In this document: in pieces, positions 16,534 to 32,684 of the stretch
Layout: each line of letters begins with the position of its first letter
Numbering within the stretch: position 1 is the stretch's first letter
From: Candidatus Endomicrobiellum agilis
GTDB lineage: Bacteria > Elusimicrobiota > Endomicrobiia > Endomicrobiales > Endomicrobiaceae
Assembly: GCA_020328155.1 (NCBI GenBank)
Contig: JAIXMX010000009.1
Span: forward strand, 741 to 57,565
Direction of reading: 5' to 3'
DNA length: 56,825 nt
Program-made: the position numbers and the translations under genes
The notes under the pieces: model-generated
What the model saw: the letters and a program-made list of their open reading frames with translations, nothing else
The model's database searches: none
Told to the model about the DNA's origin: nothing

Positions 16534-18684
16534 CTATTGCCATGGGTGAAAAATTTCGTCATTATCAGGATTCCATGTTGCTTTTTTGTCGGAAGACGTA
16601 CTTGTTTTTGCGTTGAGTTTAAGAGAGAATTCGCTTTCTTTGTCCGCTTGTTTTTTCCACGTTATACTGAAATTATAGCAATGCAAATCTCTGTAAAGCC
16701 TAAATTCATATTCATTTATTTTACTGTTCGATATAGAGTCAAATGGGATTGTTGTTTTTACATTGAAATCTAATTTCCATTTGGGAGTGAACCATATTCC
16801 AACTCCTAAAATATTATCAATTTCGCGGTTTCTGTAAAGATTCAAGAATTTATCATATCTTTGATAAAAAGTGCCAAAATTTAAATATACTTTCTCTAGG
16901 TTGCCGATTATTAAATCTAGCTTGAGAGAATTGAATTTAAACGTATCTAGAAATTGTTTTTGTCTTATGAATTGTTCTTGTCTTATGAATACAGTCATAT
17001 CAGAATTGAGAGTCCACATTATTTCTGTGACAAAAGGCAATGGCAAATATTTGTTTAAATTATACGCAAAAAAGTTTTGAACTGCAACGCTCTCTCCGAA
17101 ATACATGTTATTATTGAAAGACAGAGAGTTTTTTTTATTTCTCAGAGTTTTAGTGCCTAAGAATTTCGTTTTCGTTATTGCATTTGTTATTGCATAATTG
17201 ACATTCCAGTCCATCCAGTCTGTAACTCTAAATCTCGCATTTGAAGAATATGTGTATTTTATGAAAAAACCGCCGTATTTTTCTTCTCCAAAATCATCTT
17301 TATTGAAATGTTGTACCGTTATTTTTAGAGCAGGAACTAATGTAAACTGGTTTCCAAATTTAAAATCTCTCATCAGTTTGTAATAGAAAAAACTGTCATT
17401 TTTACAAAAGGGCTCCTTATTTTTAGAAAGAGTTCTGTAAACGTTTTGGTACATAAAATAGAAATTGTGTATTACTCCTAAAAAAATTTTTCTAGAATAA
17501 GACGCTAACTCCGCTTTGGGAAGAGCTGCATTTAATTTTTTCGTAGGTTTATCAGTGCTGCGATACATGAAACTTATATTTAAATTTGTATCAGATCCTT
17601 GTCTTGTCACAGAGGCATAATGATTGTGATTATAAAAAGGATAATTCCCCTGCAAAAACGATGAATCTATACACTTATCATAATTACGATCATAAGGAGG
17701 ATGATTCTCCTCCAAAACCGATAAATCTATAAGCTTATCGTTACGCTTCTGCTTATTAAGCTTATCGTTACGCTTCTGCTTATTAAACTTATCGTTACGC
17801 TTCTGGTTATCAAGTTCTATATCTATATTGTTCTTAAACCGTGCCATCCATCGCATGCTCCACGTACTGTTTACTACATGTAAGTAATCAGACGTTACTT
17901 CACACTTTTTAAAATTGTTAGTTTCATTAATATTGATATCTCCATTTGCATTTTCCGCTAAGTAATCAATTTTTATTCCGTAAGAATTTTTTTGTTTTCT
18001 AAAAAAATCAGCAAAGACTTTTCCTTTTAAAGATTTGCTTAACGCGCATGAGATTACCGTATTTAAATACATACTTTTATTTTCAAATTTTGGATTAAAC
18101 TCAATTTTTAAATCTGATCCGAAAGATTTATCATCTTTGAGAGATTTTGTAAATATTGGAAGATAAAATACGGGAACTTTTCCGATATAAAAAACGGCAT
18201 TGTAAACGGTTAATCTTTTATTTAGTTCAAGTCTTCCGTGCTTTGCCCTGAAATGAGTGTGAGGGTTGTCTAAATCACATTTTGAAAACTTTATAGCTTT
18301 TATTACATATATATCTTTGTTCTGCATTTCTATAGATTTTGCTTGAATAAATGTAGAAGAAGAATATCCAAAAGTTTCGTCTATATGTCCGGTTTCTTCG
18401 TCGTAATTATATGTAGCGCTCTCTGCATAAATTATAGTTCCAGACTCTTCAACCTTAACATTCCCGAAAGCTTTCACAGTTTTTTTGTCAAATTCTATAT
18501 AATCGGCAGATACTTTTCTATTCTCCCAGTTAAAAACAGCATTGCCCTTTGCGAAAAGCTTCCCGACTTGTTCATCATATTCGAGATTATCTGCAAATAT
18601 ATCAATCTCACAAGCGAAAGCACTCAGAGCCGATAATAATATGACTGTAAAAACTATGATTCCCTTAAATAAAAATTTTTTCAT
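16534..18684 (-). CDS. lptD: LPS assembly outer-membrane protein LptD (OstA)
   Basis: 716 residues. Signal peptide MKKFLFKGIIVFTVILLSAL ends near SAFA. The N-terminal OstA/LptA-like jelly roll (about residues 25-160) has repeats such as FADNLEYDEQVGKLFAKGNA and ADYIEFDKKTVKAFGNVKVE. The rest is a beta-barrel that inserts LPS in the outer leaflet. This supports a true outer membrane with LPS. The barrel contains an unusual repetitive insertion (see 17633-17813). The C terminus NDEIFHPWQ is aromatic as in many barrels. Confidence 0.88.
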   Translation of the reverse strand: MKKFLFKGIIVFTVILLSALSAFACEIDIFADNLEYDEQVGKLFAKGNAVFNWENRKVSADYIEFDKKTVKAFGNVKVEESGTIIYAESATYNYDEETGHIDETFGYSSSTFIQAKSIEMQNKDIYVIKAIKFSKCDLDNPHTHFRAKHGRLELNKRLTVYNAVFYIGKVPVFYLPIFTKSLKDDKSFGSDLKIEFNPKFENKSMYLNTVISCALSKSLKGKVFADFFRKQKNSYGIKIDYLAENANGDININETNNFKKCEVTSDYLHVVNSTWSMRWMARFKNNIDIELDNQKRNDKFNKQKRNDKLNKQKRNDKLIDLSVLEENHPPYDRNYDKCIDSSFLQGNYPFYNHNHYASVTRQGSDTNLNISFMYRSTDKPTKKLNAALPKAELASYSRKIFLGVIHNFYFMYQNVYRTLSKNKEPFCKNDSFFYYKLMRDFKFGNQFTLVPALKITVQHFNKDDFGEEKYGGFFIKYTYSSNARFRVTDWMDWNVNYAITNAITKTKFLGTKTLRNKKNSLSFNNNMYFGESVAVQNFFAYNLNKYLPLPFVTEIMWTLNSDMTVFIRQEQFIRQKQFLDTFKFNSLKLDLIIGNLEKVYLNFGTFYQRYDKFLNLYRNREIDNILGVGIWFTPKWKLDFNVKTTIPFDSISNSKINEYEFRLYRDLHCYNFSITWKKQADKESEFSLKLNAKTSTSSDKKATWNPDNDEIFHPWQ
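17633..17813 (-). repeat. Nested tandem repeats inside lptD
   Basis: A 27 bp unit coding for KQKRNDKLN or a variant is present three times. It is followed by a roughly 65 bp unit present twice, coding for NDKLIDLSVLEENHPPYDRN and YDKCIDSSFLQGNYPFYNHN. All units keep the frame. The region lies in the barrel part, most likely an extracellular loop. Confidence 0.75.
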
Positions 18685-20647: not shown

Positions 20648-21226
20648 TTAAAAATTATCGGTTAATTCTTCCATGTATGCTTTAGGATGAAGGCAAGCCG
20701 GACATTTTTCTAAAGCCTCCTTACTTTCATATACGTAACCGCAGTTGCGGCATCTCCATTTGACAGTTATATTTTTTTTGAAAACTTTGCCGCTTTCAAG
20801 ATTACTGAGAAGTTTCAAATACCTTGTTTCATGATGTTTTTCAGCAATAGAAATTCTTCTGAAGCATTCAGCTATTTCAGGAAAACCTTCTTCGTCGGCA
20901 ATTTTTGCCGCTTCCGGGTAAATTTTTGAATGTTCTTCATTTTCGCCCGCAGCGGAGAGTCTTAAGTTTTCAACGGTGTTATTTATAATTCCGGCAGGGA
21001 AAGTCCCTGTAATTTCGAGATTGCCGCCTTCCAAGAATTTAAAAAATCTTTTTGCATGTTCTTTTTCATTATCTGCAATTTCCGCAAAAACTGCAGAAAT
21101 CTGTTCAAATCCCTCTTTTTTTGCTTTTGAAGCAAAATAAGCGTATCTCATTCTCGCTTGAGACTCACCTGCAAATGATTCTAACAAACGTTTTTCTGTT
21201 TTTGTTCCTTTAATTGATTTTGCCAT
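20648..21226 (-). CDS. rbr: Rubrerythrin
   Basis: 192 residues. The N-terminal diiron four-helix bundle has ESFAGESQARMRYAYFA, EIADNEKEHAKRFF, AGENEEHSKIYPEAA and IAEKHHETRYLKLL. The C-terminal rubredoxin-like domain has CRNCGYVYES and CPACLHPKAYM. It reduces hydrogen peroxide in the cytoplasm of anaerobes using electrons from rubredoxin, which is encoded at 25497. It belongs to a same-strand oxygen-defence cluster with superoxide reductase and a flavodiiron protein. No PerR-like operator could be recognised by eye. Confidence 0.95.
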   Translation of the reverse strand: MAKSIKGTKTEKRLLESFAGESQARMRYAYFASKAKKEGFEQISAVFAEIADNEKEHAKRFFKFLEGGNLEITGTFPAGIINNTVENLRLSAAGENEEHSKIYPEAAKIADEEGFPEIAECFRRISIAEKHHETRYLKLLSNLESGKVFKKNITVKWRCRNCGYVYESKEALEKCPACLHPKAYMEELTDNF

Positions 21227-21595: not shown

Positions 21596-22039
21596 TTATT
21601 CCACTTTTACTTCATTAAACCATTTGCCATGCACATTACAACTTTCTATAACCTGAACCTTGCCTTTTGTACCGTCTTTTAAACGAATAACCGCAGTAGG
21701 ATTAATATCAGATGTAAGCATAATATTTTCAACAAATTTATTATCAATGTAAAAAGCTATTTCCATTATATGATGTTCCGGCAAAGCAGGATGGAGAATT
21801 TCTCCGATTTTTACGCGAACGTCTATATAGTCTGCACCTGGAATTAAACCGCGTTTTCTGACCACCGCAAATGAAGGTATGTGTTTTTTTTCCGTTTCGC
21901 CGGAAATCGCTTTAAAATCCGTCATTTTGTAAGCGTCTTCTTTATCTTCAAATACGTTTTTTGCGCGGCAAACAGGACACTGTTCCCTGTTTCCATCTAA
22001 AGCTATGTAACCGCACACCTTGCAAACCAATCCTTTCAT
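21596..22039 (-). CDS. Superoxide reductase (desulfoferrodoxin type)
   Basis: 147 residues from MKGLVCKVCGY, chosen because AAGGAGG lies just upstream; the longer frame has no site. The N-terminal part has a rubredoxin-like Cys4 site (CKVCGY and CPVCRAKN). The C-terminal SORL domain has the iron ligands EKKHIPSF, HPALPEHHIMEI and ESCNVHGKW. It reduces superoxide to peroxide, which rubrerythrin then removes. The spacing of the Cys4 site resembles rubredoxin/rubrerythrin more than the classical desulforedoxin domain. Confidence 0.9.
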   Translation of the reverse strand: MKGLVCKVCGYIALDGNREQCPVCRAKNVFEDKEDAYKMTDFKAISGETEKKHIPSFAVVRKRGLIPGADYIDVRVKIGEILHPALPEHHIMEIAFYIDNKFVENIMLTSDINPTAVIRLKDGTKGKVQVIESCNVHGKWFNEVKVE

Positions 22040-22214
22040 AATACCTCCTTCAGATATCCTGTTGATTTTTATTTTTGGGGGACTTTTCAAAAGCTTCAAT
22101 CCACCATAGAGCGATAGAAAATAACTTAGCGACATACCTCAGACTACAACATTTTTGAATAATATAATCCAGAAAGAGTATTAGACTATTTATCAAAAAA
22201 CAAACGACTTTCTC

Positions 22215-23672: not shown

Positions 23673-24050
23673 TTATTTTTTCCGTTTAGCATTATAGTTT
23701 TCAACGGCTTTATGCAACGCATCTGCTCCCAAATTGGAACAATGCATTTTATTTGACGGCAATCCGCCTAAAGCTTTTGCGACGTCCGCGTTTGTAAGAT
23801 CCATGACTTCTTCGAGCGTTTTTCCCATAACCATTTCTGAAACCATTGAAGAAACAGCTATTGCCGCGCCACAGCCGAAAGTTTTAAATTTCACATCTTC
23901 AATTTTATTGTCTTTAACTTTTATATAAAAAGTCATCATATCGCCACATACCGGATTTCCCACTTCTCCGACGCCGTCGGCGTCTCTTATTTCTCCGACA
24001 TTTCGCGGATTTGCGAAATGATTCATAACTTTTTCTGAATAAAACGCCAT
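23673..24050 (-). CDS. iscU: Iron-sulfur cluster scaffold IscU/NifU N-terminal type
   Basis: 125 residues. All three scaffold cysteines are present: GNPVCGDMMTFY with the regulatory Asp, FKTFGCGAAIAVSS, and SNKMHCSNLGADAL. The usual LPPVK Hsp70-binding motif is altered to LPSNK. GGAGGATATG is the start context. It lies downstream of the desulfurase-like gene and rubredoxin; together they form a small iron-sulfur operon. Confidence 0.92.
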   Translation of the reverse strand: MAFYSEKVMNHFANPRNVGEIRDADGVGEVGNPVCGDMMTFYIKVKDNKIEDVKFKTFGCGAAIAVSSMVSEMVMGKTLEEVMDLTNADVAKALGGLPSNKMHCSNLGADALHKAVENYNAKRKK

Positions 24051-24242: not shown

Positions 24243-25490
24243 TTACTTTTCTATATCACAGTGATCATCAAAATCAGCGCCCGGTCCCGCCGATTTTCTG
24301 CTGCCGGTCCGCAGAAAATACGAATACAGAGACGACATATCTCTCAGTCTTTTAACGATATTCGGGAACACCTCTACAACATAATCTATCTCTTCTTCCG
24401 TATTAAATTTTGACAAAGTAAATAGAATTGAACCCTGCCCAACTGCAACGTCAACACCCATAGCATTTAAGACATGCGAAAGTTTAAGATTCTTATTGGC
24501 GCATGCAGAACCGCTTGCCGCCATGATTCCCTTGGCATCCAAAAGCAGAAACAGCGCTTCCCCTTCAACAAATTCTATTGAAAAATTTACATTTCCCGGC
24601 AGGCGGTTTTCACGAGCACCATTTAAATAAATATATTCTATTCTCTTAGGAAGCTCGTCAATAATTTTATCTCTTAATTTCTGGACAGTCTTAGCGTTTT
24701 TTGTAATTTCACCTTTAACTATTTCGCATGCTTTTCCAAAACCGACAATGGCCGGAAGATTTTCAGTTCCGGAACGTCTAGAATTTTCTTGAACTCCGCC
24801 CTCTATTTGAGAACTAATTCTCACGCCTTTTTTAAGATACAGCGCTGCCGCGCCTTTAGGTCCGTACATAGAAGAAGCCGAGAAAGTTAAAGCATCAACC
24901 CCTAAATCTTTAACATCTACGGGAACTGTTCCGCATGCACCGACTGCATCTGTATGAAAAGCAATAAAGTCGCTTGCGCTGCCACTTTGCTTAACTGCAG
25001 AAACTAATTTCTTTACGTCTTGGATTGTGCCTACTTCTGGATTCGCATATTGTATAGACACTAAAATCGTGTCTTTTCGCAACGCTCTTTTCAGTTCAGC
25101 TTCGCTTACATTGCCTTTACTATCAACCGGAATAAAACTTACTTTAAAACCTTCTTTTTCAAGTCTTTTCACAGGATTTAAAACTGAAAAATGTTCGATT
25201 GAAGAGACAATAATATGTCTCCCCTTAGTTTTTAAAGTGGCGACAAGACCTTTTATCGCTAAATTATTTGATTCCGTACCGCAGGATGTAAAAATAACTT
25301 CCTCGCTATCTGCATTGATTAAATCTGCAACTTGCCGTCTTGCTGTTTCAAGAGCGTCTTTGGAAAAAGAACCAAAAGAGTAAATGCTTTGGGGATTTCC
25401 GTAATGCTCAATAAAAAACGGCTTCATAGCGTCAAATACTCTTTCGTCAAGTTTAGTGTTCGACTGGTTATCAAGATATATATATTTCAT
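24243..25490 (-). CDS. Cysteine desulfurase-like protein (NifS/IscS) lacking the PLP lysine
   Basis: 415 residues, class V aminotransferase fold. Conserved: SSIEHFSVLNP (His100), HTDAVGACG (Asp181), the catalytic loop ASGSACANKNLKLSHVL (Cys330) and RRSGTENLP. Altered: where IscS has SGHKIYGPKG, with the Schiff-base lysine, this protein has SASSMYGPKG, so His and Lys are both Ser (206, 207). The Gln that stacks near the cofactor is Gly184, and the Asn-Asn-Glu motif is ANPEVG. The reading frame and flanks are otherwise well kept. Archaeoglobus fulgidus IscS is known to lack this lysine too. It may donate sulfur by a different route or act as an IscU partner. It is seven bases from rubredoxin and upstream of iscU. 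Confidence 0.85.
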   Translation of the reverse strand: MKYIYLDNQSNTKLDERVFDAMKPFFIEHYGNPQSIYSFGSFSKDALETARRQVADLINADSEEVIFTSCGTESNNLAIKGLVATLKTKGRHIIVSSIEHFSVLNPVKRLEKEGFKVSFIPVDSKGNVSEAELKRALRKDTILVSIQYANPEVGTIQDVKKLVSAVKQSGSASDFIAFHTDAVGACGTVPVDVKDLGVDALTFSASSMYGPKGAAALYLKKGVRISSQIEGGVQENSRRSGTENLPAIVGFGKACEIVKGEITKNAKTVQKLRDKIIDELPKRIEYIYLNGARENRLPGNVNFSIEFVEGEALFLLLDAKGIMAASGSACANKNLKLSHVLNAMGVDVAVGQGSILFTLSKFNTEEEIDYVVEVFPNIVKRLRDMSSLYSYFLRTGSRKSAGPGADFDDHCDIEK

Positions 25491-25496
25491 AAGTTG

Positions 25497-25655
25497 CTAC
25501 TCTTTTTCAAAAGCACTTTTAGGAGCGCCGCATACCGGACATATCCAGCTGTCGGGAAGCTGTTCAAAAGGAGTTTCCGGAGCAATACCTTCGTCAGAAA
25601 AACCTGAGTCAGGATTATAAACATAACCGCATACCGAACATTTCCATTTTTCCAT
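25497..25655 (-). CDS. rub: Rubredoxin
   Basis: 52 residues, missed by simple length cut-offs. [18 protein letters not shown] and [16 protein letters not shown] give the two Cys-x-x-Cys pairs that bind one iron. AAGGAGAATATT precedes the ATG. It is a one-electron carrier, the expected donor for the flavodiiron protein, superoxide reductase and rubrerythrin downstream. It is the first gene of the rubredoxin-desulfurase-iscU unit. Confidence 0.95.
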
Positions 25656-25745: not shown

Positions 25746-27497
25746 TCATTTTTTTAAATTTAGAGTCAGAGTTTTAACATCATTTAATAATGCGTTCGCG
25801 GAATCTTTGTCTAAATTTACAGAAGCAAACTTATAAAAGTCAAACCTCTCCAACATGTTTATTATTTCCGCAATTTTTTCATCATTCGCACCTTTCACCC
25901 GCAAATTATACGCTATCTTGTCTCTCTGTAAATTATCCGATACTACGCTAGTCTCAATATTTATGATTTCAATCAAAGCTTTATAAACTAAATTCATTGC
26001 GGCTTCAAAATTGTTTTCGGAAATTTCAACTTCGGCTTTTTTTATAAGTTTCTGTATTCCAGCAAAATGAGAAACTTTTAATTTTTTTAATGGATTCCTG
26101 GATATTTTATCTACATACATTTTATAACACGCACTCAAAACAAGCAATATAATAAAAGGAGCAAATATTAAATAGAACGCAGGTTTTTCTATAAGATATC
26201 CTTTGTACATTTCAAGAGTTTTTATATGCTTATTGCAGTTTATGTCTTTACGCACCATGTTTATCTTTGATTTATCTTCGACATTCTCTTTAGGATATAC
26301 AGCCATGCCGCTTACGGTAATTTTTTGCGGAGATGTTTTTATGGTTTCATATTGTTTCTTTACGGGATTAAAGAAAGAAAGACTTACCGCAGGTATTTCC
26401 TTTTCGCCCGGCATAAGTGGAATAAATATCGTTTTAAATTTTTTTGAATTACCGGAAGCATTCGCGATTATAGTATCATACTTCTTAAAGCTGTCATAAA
26501 CGCCAAAGTTTATATTGCTTACGCTTTTCATATTTCCGCTGCCGCTTACAATCACGGTCAAAGTTACAGGTTCGTTCGTATTAACGTCCTTTTTATCAAT
26601 AGAAGCTTTAATTTTAAAATCGCCTATAGCCCCTGAAAAATCAGATGGTTTACCTTCCTGAGGTACGGGGATAACTTTTATTTCTATTGCATTGGTTTCT
26701 AAAACTTTAGTTTGTCCGTTTTTCATATCTGCAAAAAAATTGAAAAAATCATCCGCGATGGAAGATGCTGAAAAATCCATAACAGATACTTTCAATTTCG
26801 CAGGTAAAATTGTCTTTATTCCAGTTCCGACAGGGTATAAAACTGTTTCCATTTCATCGACACGATAATTTAAACCGTCCACAACCTCAAAATGACTTTT
26901 AAGTTTTGAACCGTCGTTCCAAAAACCTGAAAAATCCGGCGGATAATATTCAGGGTTTGATGCTAGATCAACATTTGTATAAAAACTGAACTTATAAACC
27001 AGCTTCTCATTTTCATAAGCGGTTTTCTTATCTACAGAAGCTTTTACAAAAGCTTTTCCCGATGTATTTTGCAACGGCTGCTGTTGATTATTGCCGACAG
27101 GAATATTCTGAACGCTTTGAGCCGGGATAACTTCAATTTCTATGCTTTCCGTCAGATATGTTTTACCATTAAACGCTATTTCGGCAGGCTGTATTGTAAA
27201 TTTCCCTGTTCTTTTTGGAGCTAAAGTATAGCTGTGCGTTACGCTAACGCTTGTCTTGCCGTTGATTACAGATATACTCTGCGAAGCAGACTTTCCAAAC
27301 CTATTGAAATCCGGCAAAGCGTCCATTTTATGCTCCGGAAGATTTACGCCCCCTCCATTTACTGTAATCGAATATACAAAAGACTCGTTTAACGACACGG
27401 TTCTCTTATTTACAGACGCCTCAAAATAAACGGCATCGGCATATGCCGTAACAGATGAAAAAAGCAATGCGGCAGGCAACAATATTTTCTTAAACAT
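25746..27497 (-). CDS. batD: Aerotolerance protein BatD
   Basis: 583 residues. Signal peptide MFKKILLPAALLFSSVTAYA. It is followed by repeated beta-sandwich modules with the BatD pattern (ASVNKRTVSLNESFVYSITV, later ASVDKKTAYENEKLVYKFSF and ASIDKKDVNTNEPVTLTVIV). A membrane helix lies near residues 441-460 (FYLIFAPFIILLVLSACYKM), then a helical C-terminal tail. Most of it faces the periplasm. It is the last gene of the moxR-bat operon, two bases after batC. Confidence 0.88.
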   Translation of the reverse strand: MFKKILLPAALLFSSVTAYADAVYFEASVNKRTVSLNESFVYSITVNGGGVNLPEHKMDALPDFNRFGKSASQSISVINGKTSVSVTHSYTLAPKRTGKFTIQPAEIAFNGKTYLTESIEIEVIPAQSVQNIPVGNNQQQPLQNTSGKAFVKASVDKKTAYENEKLVYKFSFYTNVDLASNPEYYPPDFSGFWNDGSKLKSHFEVVDGLNYRVDEMETVLYPVGTGIKTILPAKLKVSVMDFSASSIADDFFNFFADMKNGQTKVLETNAIEIKVIPVPQEGKPSDFSGAIGDFKIKASIDKKDVNTNEPVTLTVIVSGSGNMKSVSNINFGVYDSFKKYDTIIANASGNSKKFKTIFIPLMPGEKEIPAVSLSFFNPVKKQYETIKTSPQKITVSGMAVYPKENVEDKSKINMVRKDINCNKHIKTLEMYKGYLIEKPAFYLIFAPFIILLVLSACYKMYVDKISRNPLKKLKVSHFAGIQKLIKKAEVEISENNFEAAMNLVYKALIEIINIETSVVSDNLQRDKIAYNLRVKGANDEKIAEIINMLERFDFYKFASVNLDKDSANALLNDVKTLTLNLKK

Positions 27498-27498
27498 T

Positions 27499-28515
27499 TT
27501 ACCAATCCTCTTGAGGTTGATTTAATGCTAATTTTTTATTTTTACCTCTTAACTTACCGGCTTTTTTGTCGGCTTCGTCATAGTAATTCAAAAACATTGT
27601 CTCAGACATATTCCTTTTATCTTCCTTTTTCTCTTGCTTTCGCATTTTCAGAGTCCCAATCTGTTTTTCTTTTTGAGATTTATCTTCTCGAGATATATTT
27701 CCATTAGGCGCTTTATCTCCAGTCAGTCCTGCTTTTTTTAATGCTTTTATTTTACCGTTTATTTCCTGCCTTTGTTTGTTAAGTTCCTGCTTTTCTTTCT
27801 CTATGTCTTCCCGTGATTTCTGCTGTTTTTGAATTTCATCTTTGCCTCGAGAATTCTGTCTTCCAGCGCTCTGTCCCTTTTGTTTATCTAATTCTCGCCG
27901 CTTTTTCTCGTTTTCTTTTTGGGATTTATCATTCTGCTCCACTTGTCTCTTCAAATTTTGTTCTTCATTGTTCTGCCGCTGGCCGCTGTCGTTTTGTCCT
28001 TCCTCTCCGCGGCTTTGCTTTTTCCGCCAATCGTCTTTCTGTCTGTTACTCTTACTATTATTTTGTCTGTTGTCTTTTTCATTTAGCTTCAATAGCGCTG
28101 CTTCAAGATTATATTTTGCATCTTTATCGCTGGGGTTTAATTTTAACGATTTTTTATATAAATCAGCGGCTTTCTCAAAATCATTTTTACTGTACTCTAT
28201 ATTTCCTAAGCCGTATAAAGCTGTAAATTTTTTATCATCGCCGGCATCTAAAGAATTTAATACACTGTTGTATTTCATTTGCGCTTCGTCAAATTTACCC
28301 AGTTTATATTCTGCTCCAGCGGCATTGTTTAATATATCGTAATTACTTGGTAATTTTTCAAGTTCTCTGTTAAAATTTTCAGAGGCGGCTTTAAAATTTC
28401 CGTCATTAAAACACTTAACGGCTTTATTGTTCCCTTTTATATCCTTATGCGAAAAAATCAAAAGAAAAATTAGCAAAGCCGTCGATAAAGCTAATAAAAA
28501 TATTTTCAGTTTCAT
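27499..28515 (-). CDS. batC: TPR protein BatC
   Basis: 338 residues. One N-terminal membrane segment (IFLLALSTALLIFLLIF). It is followed by about three tetratricopeptide repeats (NDGNFKAASENFNRELEKLP; SKNDFEKAADLYKKSLKLNP), then a long highly charged Gln/Lys/Arg/Asn-rich tail of low complexity. It overlaps batB by four bases. In Bacteroides-type aerotolerance operons a TPR protein accompanies the vWA proteins and probably assembles the complex. The tail has no assigned role. Confidence 0.82.
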   Translation of the reverse strand: MKLKIFLLALSTALLIFLLIFSHKDIKGNNKAVKCFNDGNFKAASENFNRELEKLPSNYDILNNAAGAEYKLGKFDEAQMKYNSVLNSLDAGDDKKFTALYGLGNIEYSKNDFEKAADLYKKSLKLNPSDKDAKYNLEAALLKLNEKDNRQNNSKSNRQKDDWRKKQSRGEEGQNDSGQRQNNEEQNLKRQVEQNDKSQKENEKKRRELDKQKGQSAGRQNSRGKDEIQKQQKSREDIEKEKQELNKQRQEINGKIKALKKAGLTGDKAPNGNISREDKSQKEKQIGTLKMRKQEKKEDKRNMSETMFLNYYDEADKKAGKLRGKNKKLALNQPQEDW

Positions 28516-29504
28516 ATCTTACGCCTCAGCGGAAAGAAAAGTTCCGCAAACAGCGCGATCAAACCAAGAAGCAAAAATGTTTGAAACCTGTCAATTTTAT
28601 TGTTTCTTTCGCTGACTTCGCTGTTATTTTTATCCAAATTGCGAATAGTTTTTAAAAGCAATGGATAATTGTCTTCATCTGAGACATTAAAATATCTTCC
28701 GCCCGTTTCTTCGGCAACAGTTTTCAATAAAACAGAATCTAATCTACTCATAACTATTTTCCCGCTTTTGTCTTTTACATAATCTCTTGCCGCGCCCGTT
28801 TCGTCCCTAATTGGAATAGGAGCGCCTTCATGTGTTCCTATTCCAACAGAAATAATTTTTAAGCCCGCCTCTTTTGCCGTACACATAGCTTCTTTTATTT
28901 TTGGGTCGCGATTTTCGCCGTCGCTTATCAGAAACATTATCCCGCCACCTGCTGCTCTACTGCTTACCGCTTTTGAAGCAAGCGCAACCGCATCGCTTAT
29001 TCTCGTACCGCCCAAAGGAAGATTGTCTGTTTCAACGTTTTGTAGAAACATTTTTAACGCCTGCAAGTCATAAGTCATAGGACATTGCCACATCGCTGTC
29101 CCAGAAAAAACGATAATACCAATTTTTTCGCCAGGGTTTTTCTCAACAATCTCTAAAATCATCATCTTCGCTTTTTCAAGCCTATTCGGTTTTAAATCTT
29201 CGGCAAGCATACTTCTTGAAATGTCCAAAGCTATAATTATTTCAGAAGATTCTTTAACTACTGTTTCCGCTTTTTTCCCATACTGCGGACGCGCCATCGC
29301 GAGAATAATAAAAAAAAGACCGATAAGAAACAAAACGTGCTTTATCGCATAAGCTTTTAAATTAACGACCGCAAGCGTTGGTATATTTATTCGCGATATC
29401 AAGAGCCTCAATGCAGTTTTTCTTTTTTCAAATGCAATATAAAGGAAAACCGCTAACGCCGGTATTAACAAAAGAAGCAGTAAATAAATTTTATCCGCAA
29501 ACAT
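28512..29504 (-). CDS. batB: vWA-domain membrane protein BatB
   Basis: 330 residues. Two N-terminal membrane helices (LLLLLLIPALAVFLYIAF; HVLFLIGLFFIILAMA) precede a von Willebrand A domain with the metal-site motif IALDISRSMLAEDL and downstream GGTRISDAV and FLISDGENRD. A C-terminal helix closes the protein (FLLLGLIALFAELFF). It is one of two vWA proteins in this operon and likely forms a membrane complex with BatA. Confidence 0.88.
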   Translation of the reverse strand: MFADKIYLLLLLLIPALAVFLYIAFEKRKTALRLLISRINIPTLAVVNLKAYAIKHVLFLIGLFFIILAMARPQYGKKAETVVKESSEIIIALDISRSMLAEDLKPNRLEKAKMMILEIVEKNPGEKIGIIVFSGTAMWQCPMTYDLQALKMFLQNVETDNLPLGGTRISDAVALASKAVSSRAAGGGIMFLISDGENRDPKIKEAMCTAKEAGLKIISVGIGTHEGAPIPIRDETGAARDYVKDKSGKIVMSRLDSVLLKTVAEETGGRYFNVSDEDNYPLLLKTIRNLDKNNSEVSERNNKIDRFQTFLLLGLIALFAELFFPLRRKI

Positions 29505-29660
29505 ATTTCTTTCCTTCCGTTTTTCCCGCCTGTCATTTCTGGACAGATAGAAGCTTCTAAAAATTCCCTATAAGTCCGGATATTTCAAGAACTTCATTCT
29601 CTCAGTATGTCGCTTTCTGATATTTGCCGTTTATTCCGTCGTTAGTTTTCCATTTTGCCA

Positions 29661-30662
29661 TCAAGGAAGTTTCCTCAAATAAGCGTTCTCTAAAATAATT
29701 ATGAGCAGCAGCAAAATAAAAGCTGGAATCAAAAAATATTTATACAGCTCGCTGTAATTAGTAAACTGCACGACTTCAATCTCGTATTTTTCCAGCTTAT
29801 CTATCTGTTTCATTATGTTTTCAAAAGACTTTGCATCTCGCGCCATGAAGTACTCGCCGCCGGTATTACGCGTTATTTCTTTTAAAACATTTTCATTAAT
29901 CGCATCCTGCGTATATCTAACTTTTCTTTTACCAAAAAACGGATCGTCTATCTCATAAATCGCGCCCTCAGGACTTCCCACTCCTACGGCATAAATTTTT
30001 ATATCATAGCTTTGAGCTATTCCTGAAGCGGTTACTGGATCAATTTCGCCCGCATTATTATTGCCGTCGGTAACAAGAATTATAATCTTACTTTTAGCCT
30101 GACTGTCTTTTAATCTATTGACGGAAGTCATTATGGCAGAACCTATCGCCGTACCATCAAGTCCAGTATCTCCGATATTTATATTTTTTATAAATTCGGC
30201 AAGAGAACCTTTGTCGGTCGTAAGCGGACACTGCGTAAAAGCAAGCCCTGAAAAAATTACAAGCCCTATCCTGTCATATTTTCTTTCTTTAACAAAATCC
30301 TGCGTAACTTTTTTTGCGACTTCCATTCTATTTAATGGTCTAAAATCCAGAGAACGCATACTCGTTGAAGTATCGAGCGCTATCATAATATCAATACCTT
30401 GATCGCTTGACTGTTCAAAAGTTTTCCCAACTTGCGGTTTCGCAAGCGCGACGATAATCAAAATCAGCGGAACATATCTTAAAATCTTCAAGATATTCAA
30501 AAGTACTATTTTAAATCCCGTGTCACTATTTTTAAGTAAACTTACACGCGGAAAACTGATATGAGAGTTAAAAGAGTTTTTCTTTGTAATATTAATATAC
30601 GCATACGCAAACACAAGCGTTGGAAAAAATATTAAAAGATATATAGGACTTGCAAATCTCAT
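29661..30662 (-). CDS. batA: vWA-domain membrane protein BatA
   Basis: 333 residues. N-terminal helices (PIYLLIFFPTLVFAYAYI; YVPLILIIVALAKPQVG) lead into a vWA domain with MIALDTSTSMRSLDF, TGLDGTAIGSAIMT and ILVTDGNNNAGEIDP. A C-terminal helix follows (FLIPAFILLLLIIILENAYL). It overlaps the next upstream gene by four bases. Part of the moxR-DUF58-bat operon. Confidence 0.88.
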   Translation of the reverse strand: MRFASPIYLLIFFPTLVFAYAYINITKKNSFNSHISFPRVSLLKNSDTGFKIVLLNILKILRYVPLILIIVALAKPQVGKTFEQSSDQGIDIMIALDTSTSMRSLDFRPLNRMEVAKKVTQDFVKERKYDRIGLVIFSGLAFTQCPLTTDKGSLAEFIKNINIGDTGLDGTAIGSAIMTSVNRLKDSQAKSKIIILVTDGNNNAGEIDPVTASGIAQSYDIKIYAVGVGSPEGAIYEIDDPFFGKRKVRYTQDAINENVLKEITRNTGGEYFMARDAKSFENIMKQIDKLEKYEIEVVQFTNYSELYKYFLIPAFILLLLIIILENAYLRKLP

Positions 30663-31540
30663 AACAACTCCAAAAGTTTTTTTGTAAAATTATAATTGTT
30701 CTCTATTTCAATTTTACTCGGCGTAAAATTGGCATATCTCGCCAAATTAAATATTTTCAAATAATTTTCAAACTCAACATTTATCTCTTCAGGAATAAAA
30801 GTCTTAACTTTGCCGAAAAATTCCGACGTCGTCATTCTCATAGCATTAAAATTGTACCGTTCAGACGCATAAGTCCTTAAAATTTCAGACATTTTATAAT
30901 AGAAAATCCTTGCGCTTACGCCGTTTCTGTTTTTATATAAATTGCTTAAGGCGTCTAATGCTCTGGTTTTAGAGTCAGTTTCAAGCCGTTTTGGCTTCCT
31001 TATGAGTCCTGCAACGGCTTTTGCAACGAATATGGCGCAAATGATAAGCAATACTAACGCAATAATCGTTAAAAAAATATATATGGGTTTAACTTTTAAT
31101 TTTTTTAAAGCTTTTATATCTTTTATATCTTGTACTGTCTCGTTTCCGACAATACTTATAACTTCAATCTGCGCTTCAGGCGTAAAAAACAAATTGTCAG
31201 TTCCGTCAGAATTTATGTAAAAAACCGCCAGTTGATTTAATGTAAGAGTTCCGATTTTATACGCCGCGACATTAAATTTTAATTCGTAACTATTTTCCGC
31301 ATCGGATACGCGATCGATATCTGAGCTTATAATATCAAAGTCGGCAAAATCAAAGTTTTGCGCTGCACTTATCTGGGCATTTTGCGGTAGTTGTACTTTT
31401 ATGGTAAATTTTACTATATCGCCGATAAAAACCTTATTTTTATCTAATGAAACGTTTATTCTTTCCTGCGCGTGCAAGGACACATAAGTACAGAGAATAA
31501 ACAAAACATTAACAATAATATATTTAAAATGTTTACACAT
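30659..31540 (-). CDS. Bat-operon membrane protein with BatD-like N terminus
   Basis: 293 residues. A signal peptide (YIIVNVLFILCTYVSLHA) is followed by an exported beta domain similar in style to a BatD module (RINVSLDKNKVFIGDIVKFT). A membrane helix near residues 154-176 (YIFLTIIALVLLIICAIFVA) and a cytoplasmic helical domain follow. It stands between DUF58 and batA, where such operons usually carry a small membrane protein of the DUF4381 type. Exact family assignment is an inference. Confidence 0.7.
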   Translation of the reverse strand: MCKHFKYIIVNVLFILCTYVSLHAQERINVSLDKNKVFIGDIVKFTIKVQLPQNAQISAAQNFDFADFDIISSDIDRVSDAENSYELKFNVAAYKIGTLTLNQLAVFYINSDGTDNLFFTPEAQIEVISIVGNETVQDIKDIKALKKLKVKPIYIFLTIIALVLLIICAIFVAKAVAGLIRKPKRLETDSKTRALDALSNLYKNRNGVSARIFYYKMSEILRTYASERYNFNAMRMTTSEFFGKVKTFIPEEINVEFENYLKIFNLARYANFTPSKIEIENNYNFTKKLLELL

Positions 31541-31608
31541 TTTTATTATGCCTTTAGTGCATCAAAAAGTTGTATATTGTTACGAAAATCAAAGGTTTTC
31601 CGAAATGA

Positions 31609-32517
31609 CTATATCCGACGTATTCGTCTCTCTCTTTCTTTAAAAAATCTTATAAGCGGTTTTATATAAGTCCCGTCTGTATTCAAATTTATGACACTAA
31701 CTTTCGCTTTTTGAAATATTCTGTCAGTTTTCTTTTTAAAAGATTTGCTTTTCCGTTTAAACGATTCGGACATAGCAGAAGTATCAATTGTTATCATTTC
31801 TTTTATTTCCGGATCTTTCATTTCAACTAAACCCACTGACGGTAAGTCGTTCTCTCTGTCATCTTCTATTCTCACGCATATCAAATCGTGCCTTTTTGCA
31901 GTTATTGCCAAATCTTTCTCATAGTTTTCGTCCTGAAAATCTGAAATGAGGAAAACAACCGCTCTTCTGCGCCATATTTCATTTATTGCTTTCAATGCTG
32001 ACGATATCGAAGTTTTTGTGCCGGATGGATTTGAATCGAGTACTTCATCTATGATTCTCAAAACGTTGTTTCTGCCTTTACGAGGCGTGATAATTTTCTC
32101 AACTTTATCGGTAAAAGAAAGCATTCCGACCCTGTCGTTATTTTTTAAAGAAGCAACCGCCAAGAGAGCCACCACTTCGGCGGCAATTTCAGATTTTAAT
32201 TTGTCTGCGCTGCCAAAACACTGTGATGACGAAATATCTATAAGGAAAATTACGGTAAGTTCTCTTTCTTCCGAAAAAAGTTTTATATAAGGTTTGCCAT
32301 AGCGAGCTGTAACATTATGGTCAATACTTCTAAAATCATCGCCGATTTGATATTCCCTGACTTCGGCAAATTCTATTCCCTGCCCTTTAAAAACACTTTG
32401 ATACTCTCCGGCGAATATTTCACTTACAAGCTTGTTCGACTTTATTTCAAGTCGCCGTACTTGCTTCTTTAATATATCCTTATCCGATACATAACGATCC
32501 AAAACATCTACTGTCAT
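31609..32517 (-). CDS. DUF58 domain protein
   Basis: About 302 residues, starting at MTVDVLDRYVSD (a longer frame exists, but this start aligns with the family). The DUF58 core has GEYQSVFKGQGIEFAEVREY, GDDFRSIDHNVTARYGKPY and a vWA-like motif FLIDISSSQCFGS. It is regularly encoded between a MoxR ATPase and vWA membrane proteins and thought to work in their assembly or in chaperone-like complexes. Confidence 0.88.
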   Translation of the reverse strand: MTVDVLDRYVSDKDILKKQVRRLEIKSNKLVSEIFAGEYQSVFKGQGIEFAEVREYQIGDDFRSIDHNVTARYGKPYIKLFSEERELTVIFLIDISSSQCFGSADKLKSEIAAEVVALLAVASLKNNDRVGMLSFTDKVEKIITPRKGRNNVLRIIDEVLDSNPSGTKTSISSALKAINEIWRRRAVVFLISDFQDENYEKDLAITAKRHDLICVRIEDDRENDLPSVGLVEMKDPEIKEMITIDTSAMSESFKRKSKSFKKKTDRIFQKAKVSVINLNTDGTYIKPLIRFFKERERRIRRI

Positions 32518-32684
32518 TAACACACACCTAAAAATAGTCGAGAACGGAATTAAAAACAACGATACATTGCAGTTTGTAATTAAGCTTACATTAATAAACT
32601 TGTTTTAACTTCATAGCGGACATGATCCGCAATATATTGTTGCCTTCCGTCCCGAAACTATCATTTCAAATTCTAAATTGCCAT

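Follow-up and report, generated by a model that had tools for sequence, protein, structure and literature searches.

A cysteine desulfurase-like protein without the PLP lysine is conserved across a class of Elusimicrobiota and adjoins the only IscU found in an Endomicrobium genome

The window, that is, the whole 56,825-nucleotide stretch of DNA analysed here, comes from Candidatus Endomicrobiellum agilis (genome G000; 1.29 Mb, 99.91% complete). It contains a run of genes in the order BatD-type genes, rubredoxin, Lys-less NifS, IscU, flavo-diiron protein, desulfoferrodoxin and rubrerythrin. The Lys-less gene is read from the minus strand; over the same positions the plus strand has no open frame and many stops. 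The principal features, with those marked "derived" placed from residue numbers, are as follows.

25497-25655, minus strand: rubredoxin, 52 aa, ending 6 bp before the start of the Lys-less gene
24243-25490, minus strand: Lys-less IscS/NifS paralogue, 415 aa, TIGR03402 476 bits
24870-24875, minus strand: TCT TCT (plus-strand letters AGAAGA), Ser206-Ser207 replacing His205-Lys206
24501-24503 (derived), minus strand: Cys330 (E. coli Cys328), the persulfide Cys, in the loop GSACANKNLK
24492-24494, minus strand: Lys333, three residues past the loop Cys
24423-24425 (derived), minus strand: Leu356, replacing the substrate-binding Arg354
24246-24335 (derived), minus strand: C-terminal helix and lineage-specific His/acid-rich tail (SSLYSYFLRTGSRKSAGPGADFDDHCDIEK)
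23673-24050, minus strand: iscU, 125 aa, motifs NPVCGD, FGCGAA and HCSN, TIGR03419 205 bits
22215-23411, minus strand: flavo-diiron protein FprA
21596-22135, minus strand: desulfoferrodoxin (superoxide reductase) with a rubredoxin-like N-terminus
20648-21226, minus strand: rubrerythrin, NF045767, 282.7 bits, above cut-off

This gene set is the oxygen-defence set of an anaerobe, and in basal relatives it additionally includes a Fur-family regulator, ferritin-like proteins, DsrE (PF13686) and TusA (PF01206). Both neighbors named in the original prediction are there: the rubredoxin immediately upstream, and an intact iscU 192 bp downstream whose TIGR03419 score exceeds the cut-off. Just upstream on the same strand, positions 25746-32559 span a VWA operon of BatA/BatB/BatD type that also encodes DUF58 and TPR proteins. 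Elsewhere in the window, 16534-18684 encodes a 716-aa outer-membrane-like protein, LptD-like by eye, with an imperfect internal NKQKRNDK repeat and no Pfam match.

The Lys-less protein retains the general architecture of a cysteine desulfurase. PF00266 (fold type I, aminotransferase class V) matches over its full length with 243.8 bits, while the equivalog models fall short of their cut-offs (TIGR03402, 476 vs. 530.75 bits; TIGR02006, 375.7 vs. 643.2 bits). A NIF-system NifS dedicated to nitrogenase is not favored, because the TIGR03402 score is low and the operon concerns oxygen defence and iron. Alignment with E. coli IscS, whose numbering is used for lost and kept sites, places Ser206 and Ser207 of the window protein at His205 and the Schiff-base Lys206, within a SASSMYGPKG motif, and also reveals the replacements Q183 to G184, N155 to P151, M151 to Q147 and, at the residue that binds the substrate carboxylate, R354 to L356. 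Retained are His104 (H100), Asp180 (D181), the loop cysteine Cys328 (C330), and the phosphate cup made by Thr76 (T72), Ser203 (S204) and Thr243 (T242). The original prediction, made from the sequence alone, had correctly listed the paired serines, the Gly and Pro at the Gln and second Asn, and a full-length protein with its Cys loop, His100 and Asp181 kept; it had missed Arg354 and Met151. An AlphaFold2 model built with 25 orthologues (pLDDT 85.4, pTM 0.85) predicts that the fold is intact, and a Foldseek search with this model returned Archaeoglobus fulgidus IscS as the top structural match. That protein, already proposed as the precedent, has lost the same Lys, His, Gln and Arg.

What these losses mean for chemistry is partly known from E. 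coli IscS, in which the K206A, H104Q and Q183E variants all have zero desulfurase activity, yet K206A still binds some PLP (PMC9978102). Loss of activity is thus to be expected, while loss of PLP is not certain. Judged by its residues, the window protein is expected to be unable to act alone as a cysteine desulfurase. A missing PLP lysine need not mean missing PLP, however, as the phosphate cup is conserved and the A. fulgidus IscS structure 4EB5 is drawn with bound PLP.

The absence of the lysine is a property of a lineage rather than of one gene. In searches that covered 76 genomes from the family and 198 from the phylum, Lys-less orthologues of ~52-84% identity occur throughout Endomicrobiaceae, in further families of its class and in a few families beyond that class, and a canonical copy at ~40-50% identity is nearly always found elsewhere in those genomes. 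A clade sharing the change, which the original prediction had suggested looking for, therefore exists: the lysine is absent in 68/68 Elusimicrobiota orthologues compared, the His-Lys site being mostly Ser-Val in Endomicrobiaceae and Ser-Gln in other families. These 68 sequences span several Elusimicrobiota classes and have 102 nearly invariant positions; the loop Cys330 is present in all 68 with data. Loss of K206 coincides exactly with loss of R354, with Arg found in none of 87 Lys-less sequences vs. 109/109 canonical ones. The position of Lys333, which is Gly in 105/142 canonical proteins, is Lys or Arg in every Lys-less sequence with data, both from Elusimicrobiota (68/68) and of the archaeal type (33/33) described below.

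The gene is under purifying selection. Its dN/dS in less diverged pairs is about 0.12-0.20, much as for the canonical paralogue when the same pairs of genomes are compared. Across 16 genomes, mean identity is 75.4% for the Lys-less and 74.0% for the canonical protein, and dN is lower for the Lys-less gene in 87 of the 120 non-independent pairs that these genomes form. The clade, its invariant positions and its dN/dS together support the earlier impression of a pattern selected rather than decayed.

The genomic context sharpens the question of what such a protein is for. In G000 the iscU at 23673-24050 is the only PF01592 match, and no SufB/D was found in this 99.91% complete genome, which dismisses SUF as an alternative scaffold. 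A second, canonical NifS, whose presence the original prediction had asked about, exists as one intact copy and is the only canonical cysteine desulfurase of the genome (C1:129094-130257; L155:7083-8273). It has no adjoining iscU, being flanked by yajQ-like and rlmD-like genes, and its C-terminus is shortened to SPVWNQKNA. Four further PF00266 matches are other enzymes judging by their sequences, and look like serine-glyoxylate-type and histidinol-phosphate-type aminotransferases, a glycine dehydrogenase subunit and a basic amino-acid decarboxylase. With one PF01592 protein, no SufBD and an orphan canonical NifS, the one scaffold found shares an operon with the dead copy, so that sulfur making and cluster building fall to separate polypeptides. 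The original prediction had the adjoining iscU right, and missed both its status as sole IscU and the TusA/DsrE link of sister lineages discussed below.

This arrangement recurs. IscU is adjacent to the Lys-less gene in 55/59 loci; class-wide, a single IscU gene lies directly downstream of it, and the canonical nifS of Endomicrobiia stands without an iscU of its own. Families outside the class (G076, G083, G078 and G091) have both a canonical NifS-IscU pair and a Lys-less NifS-IscU pair, while Elusimicrobiaceae-like genomes (f13) lack the Lys-less gene and have a NifU-sized scaffold. Within the Endomicrobium family and class, SufBD appears only as isolated hits that are short and weak (rumen genus g13 and G106), full SufBD pairs being limited to other families. 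The short single SufB/D-like proteins, ~310 aa where complete and with E-values of about 1e-22 to 1e-14, resemble minimal SmsB and are carried by rumen Endomicrobiaceae and two relatives (G064-G070, G072, G106, G087). In rumen genus g13, canonical and Lys-less nifS also stand in tandem (L056-L059 and L172 of G064; G066, G068, G070).

The C-terminus follows the same division. An IscU-docking end, consisting of an SPL[YWF] motif and a helix, occurs in 64/68 Lys-less proteins and 6/6 canonical proteins with their own IscU, vs. 3/26 orphan canonical ones. The corresponding end of E. coli IscS touches IscU, and deleting it abolishes binding (PMC2854127). Since A. fulgidus IscS ends early (SPLYRR) and yet retains IscU binding, the contrast between tails is no more than suggestive. 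Beyond this motif, most Lys-less proteins bear a conserved His/acid-rich tail, ..KTGxRxxAGPGTDYEHEHEHEE; its AGPG motif is absent from all canonical proteins compared. In the window, the segment after AGPG (24246-24290) is a lineage-specific, metal-binding-like tail rich in His, Asp and Glu (and Cys); that it binds iron is a guess from its composition.

A candidate source of sulfur emerges from Lys-less loci outside the family. With A. fulgidus IscS as query (its letters agreeing in full with the aligned PDB chain), the best 30 Asgard loci and the Bacillota genome G441 all have Asn-Asp/Glu at the site and have lost Gln183 and Arg354. At every one of the 28 such archaeal-type loci with enough flank, a same-strand tusA lies within 1.5 kb, a count that covers Asgard archaea and G441; dsrE is present in 18 of the 28 and iscU in 27, and the order tusA-dsrE-iscS-iscU is seen in G441 and several Asgard operons. 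By contrast, tusA lies beside none of 109 canonical loci, 17 of which are from Asgard genomes or G441. The Fisher p of 5e-18 for this linkage is uncorrected for relatedness, so that more weight falls on how many lineages are independent, which is two or three. Among Elusimicrobiota outside Endomicrobiaceae, tusA lies within 1.5 kb at 12/22 loci and, with coordinates read jointly, on the same strand within 3 kb in 17/22 genomes. No tusA stands beside the Lys-less gene in Endomicrobiaceae, and TusA was not found anywhere in G000; the relay as such therefore cannot apply to the window's own genome. The open-access literature searched yielded no report of a link between TusA/DsrE and dead IscS, and nothing relevant on desulfurases of Endomicrobium or Elusimicrobia or on Asgard TusA and IscS taken together. 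Sulfur-carrier proteins are, we presume, also annotated near A. fulgidus iscS1, which would be a lead.

Two further observations concern these operons. Acetobacterium bakii (L097:3564-5804) encodes an IscS with His-Thr at the site, His104 changed to Asp and an intact Arg354, its operon reading dsrE-iscS-iscU and accompanied by tusA; it is perhaps a separate or an earlier stage of the same change. The IscU beside archaeal-type dead IscS is ~260 aa, twice the usual size, owing to a C-terminal extension (L222, L231 and L243 of Asgard archaea; L255 of G441).

Whether the two Lys-less types share one origin depends on the columns considered. A tree from all columns unites the Lys-less proteins of Elusimicrobiota with those of the archaeal type in a single clade (100/99). 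Once 21 active-site and lineage-diagnostic columns are masked, two separate starred clades result, and their union is not rejected (p-AU 0.349). The shared set of losses may thus reflect either inheritance or parallel loss.

Taken together, we consider it probable that the dead IscS is a docking, persulfide-receiving and cluster-ligating partner of the sole IscU, with the sulfur made elsewhere. It would dock IscU as A. fulgidus IscS does, and Cys330 would receive persulfide or sulfide and serve as the fourth ligand of the nascent [2Fe-2S] cluster. In the archaeal type and most relatives outside Endomicrobiaceae, the likely feeder would be the TusA/DsrE relay encoded alongside. As TusA is lost from G000, the donor there would be either the orphan canonical NifS, acting by heterodimer formation or trans-persulfidation, or free sulfide. 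IscU docking, cluster ligation and the direction of sulfur flow are what we infer in this scheme. A bolder version, which we advance tentatively and would not be surprised to see fail, makes Lys-less IscS with IscU a distinct Fe-S machine in which TusA (with DsrE) gives persulfide, reversing the usual IscS-to-TusA direction; Endomicrobium would then have dropped TusA, with NifS feeding the pair in trans. In E. coli IscS, the sites for TusA and IscU are different but competing (PMC11302665; PMC2854127).

The closest competitor is a special case of the probable partnership just described, in which free sulfide, plentiful in anoxic guts, feeds the dead IscS-IscU pair, the protein provides a cysteine ligand only, and NifS serves tRNA or other thiolation. 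Such a route has parallels, as H2S rescues E. coli lacking IscS only when IscU is present (PMC13015791) and a methanogen draws its Fe-S sulfur from sulfide (PMC10500019), and it would agree with the absence of TusA from G000. We nonetheless regard it as somewhat unlikely, because Lys-less genes elsewhere are coupled to the persulfide carriers TusA and DsrE, which suggests sulfane sulfur rather than bare sulfide.

Further removed is a pseudoenzyme regulator that neither carries sulfur nor ligates a cluster, and whose mixed dimers tune NifS or shield IscU under oxygen. IscS works as a dimer, canonical and dead genes stand in tandem in the rumen genus, and the operon of rubredoxin, FprA, desulfoferrodoxin and rubrerythrin, joined in relatives by a Fur-family regulator and ferritin-like proteins, would suit such a task; the orphan canonical NifS may even dock IscU itself, leaving the dead copy with a regulatory role. 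Invariance of Cys330 and its loop goes beyond the needs of a pure dimer partner, however, and basal relatives and archaea hold complete dead-IscS/IscU pairs beside canonical pairs, which makes pure regulation improbable. Still harder to sustain is residual action on an amino acid by way of non-covalently bound PLP, with another lysine, Lys333, swinging in. The fixed Lys or Arg in both Lys-less types, the intact phosphate cup and the PLP drawn in 4EB5 speak for it, but those same sequences have lost both Arg354 and Gln183, and A. fulgidus IscS, which has the equivalent lysine, is stated to lack desulfurase activity in a passage of PMC7585200 that cites Pagnier et al. (2014); we give this reading very little chance. 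Finally, clade-wide loss, full-length open frames, purifying selection and a conserved operon rule out, to a negligible residual probability, local decay, a recent pseudogene or the sequencing error at 24870-24875 that the original prediction had named as one possible refutation.

Three points give these findings weight. The annotation "cysteine desulfurase" is wrong for a whole bacterial class and many Asgard archaea. For the sulfur route to IscU in A. fulgidus, the linkage of dead iscS to tusA names a testable donor. And in Endomicrobium, a gut symbiont with a reduced genome, a dead IscS accompanies the one scaffold that was found.

Among known systems, group I IscS/NifS proteins (E. coli IscS, Thermotoga maritima NifS) share the fold, length, persulfide Cys loop and phosphate-binding residues, but possess the Lys, His205, Gln183, Asn155 and Arg354 that the window protein lacks. 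The nearest solved structure is A. fulgidus IscS2 (PDB 4EB5, 4EB7, 4HVK; D199K mutant 4R5F), a partner of IscU in which Lys is replaced by Asp, His205 by Asn, Gln183 by Ala and Arg354 by Leu, while the loop Cys, the Lys three residues on, His104 and Asp180 are kept; its Cys321 ligates the [2Fe-2S] cluster on IscU (PMC9769115). It differs in its SSNDIYGPKG motif, where Elusimicrobiota have Ser followed by Ser, Val or Gln and the window protein has Ser-Ser rather than Asn-Asp/Glu, in keeping Asn155, in lacking the His/acid-rich tail, and in falling into a separate clade when active-site columns are masked. Adjacency to iscU is common to the window locus and the archaeal type, whereas tusA accompanies only the latter; more widely, the genes of the TusA/DsrE relay adjoin Lys-less iscS in Asgard archaea, in one genome of Bacillota and, outside Endomicrobiaceae, in most lineages of Elusimicrobiota. 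Methanosarcina acetivorans IscS1 (MA0808) is likewise reported to lack the PLP lysine and to adjoin iscU, with a canonical IscS2 alongside (PMC7585200); this IscS1-IscU1 pair differs in its archaeal host and in the presence of further IscS/IscU pairs and SufBC. Because these two archaeal proteins were already known, a dead IscS is not categorically new; what is new is a variant from bacteria that is fixed throughout a class and linked to the sole scaffold.
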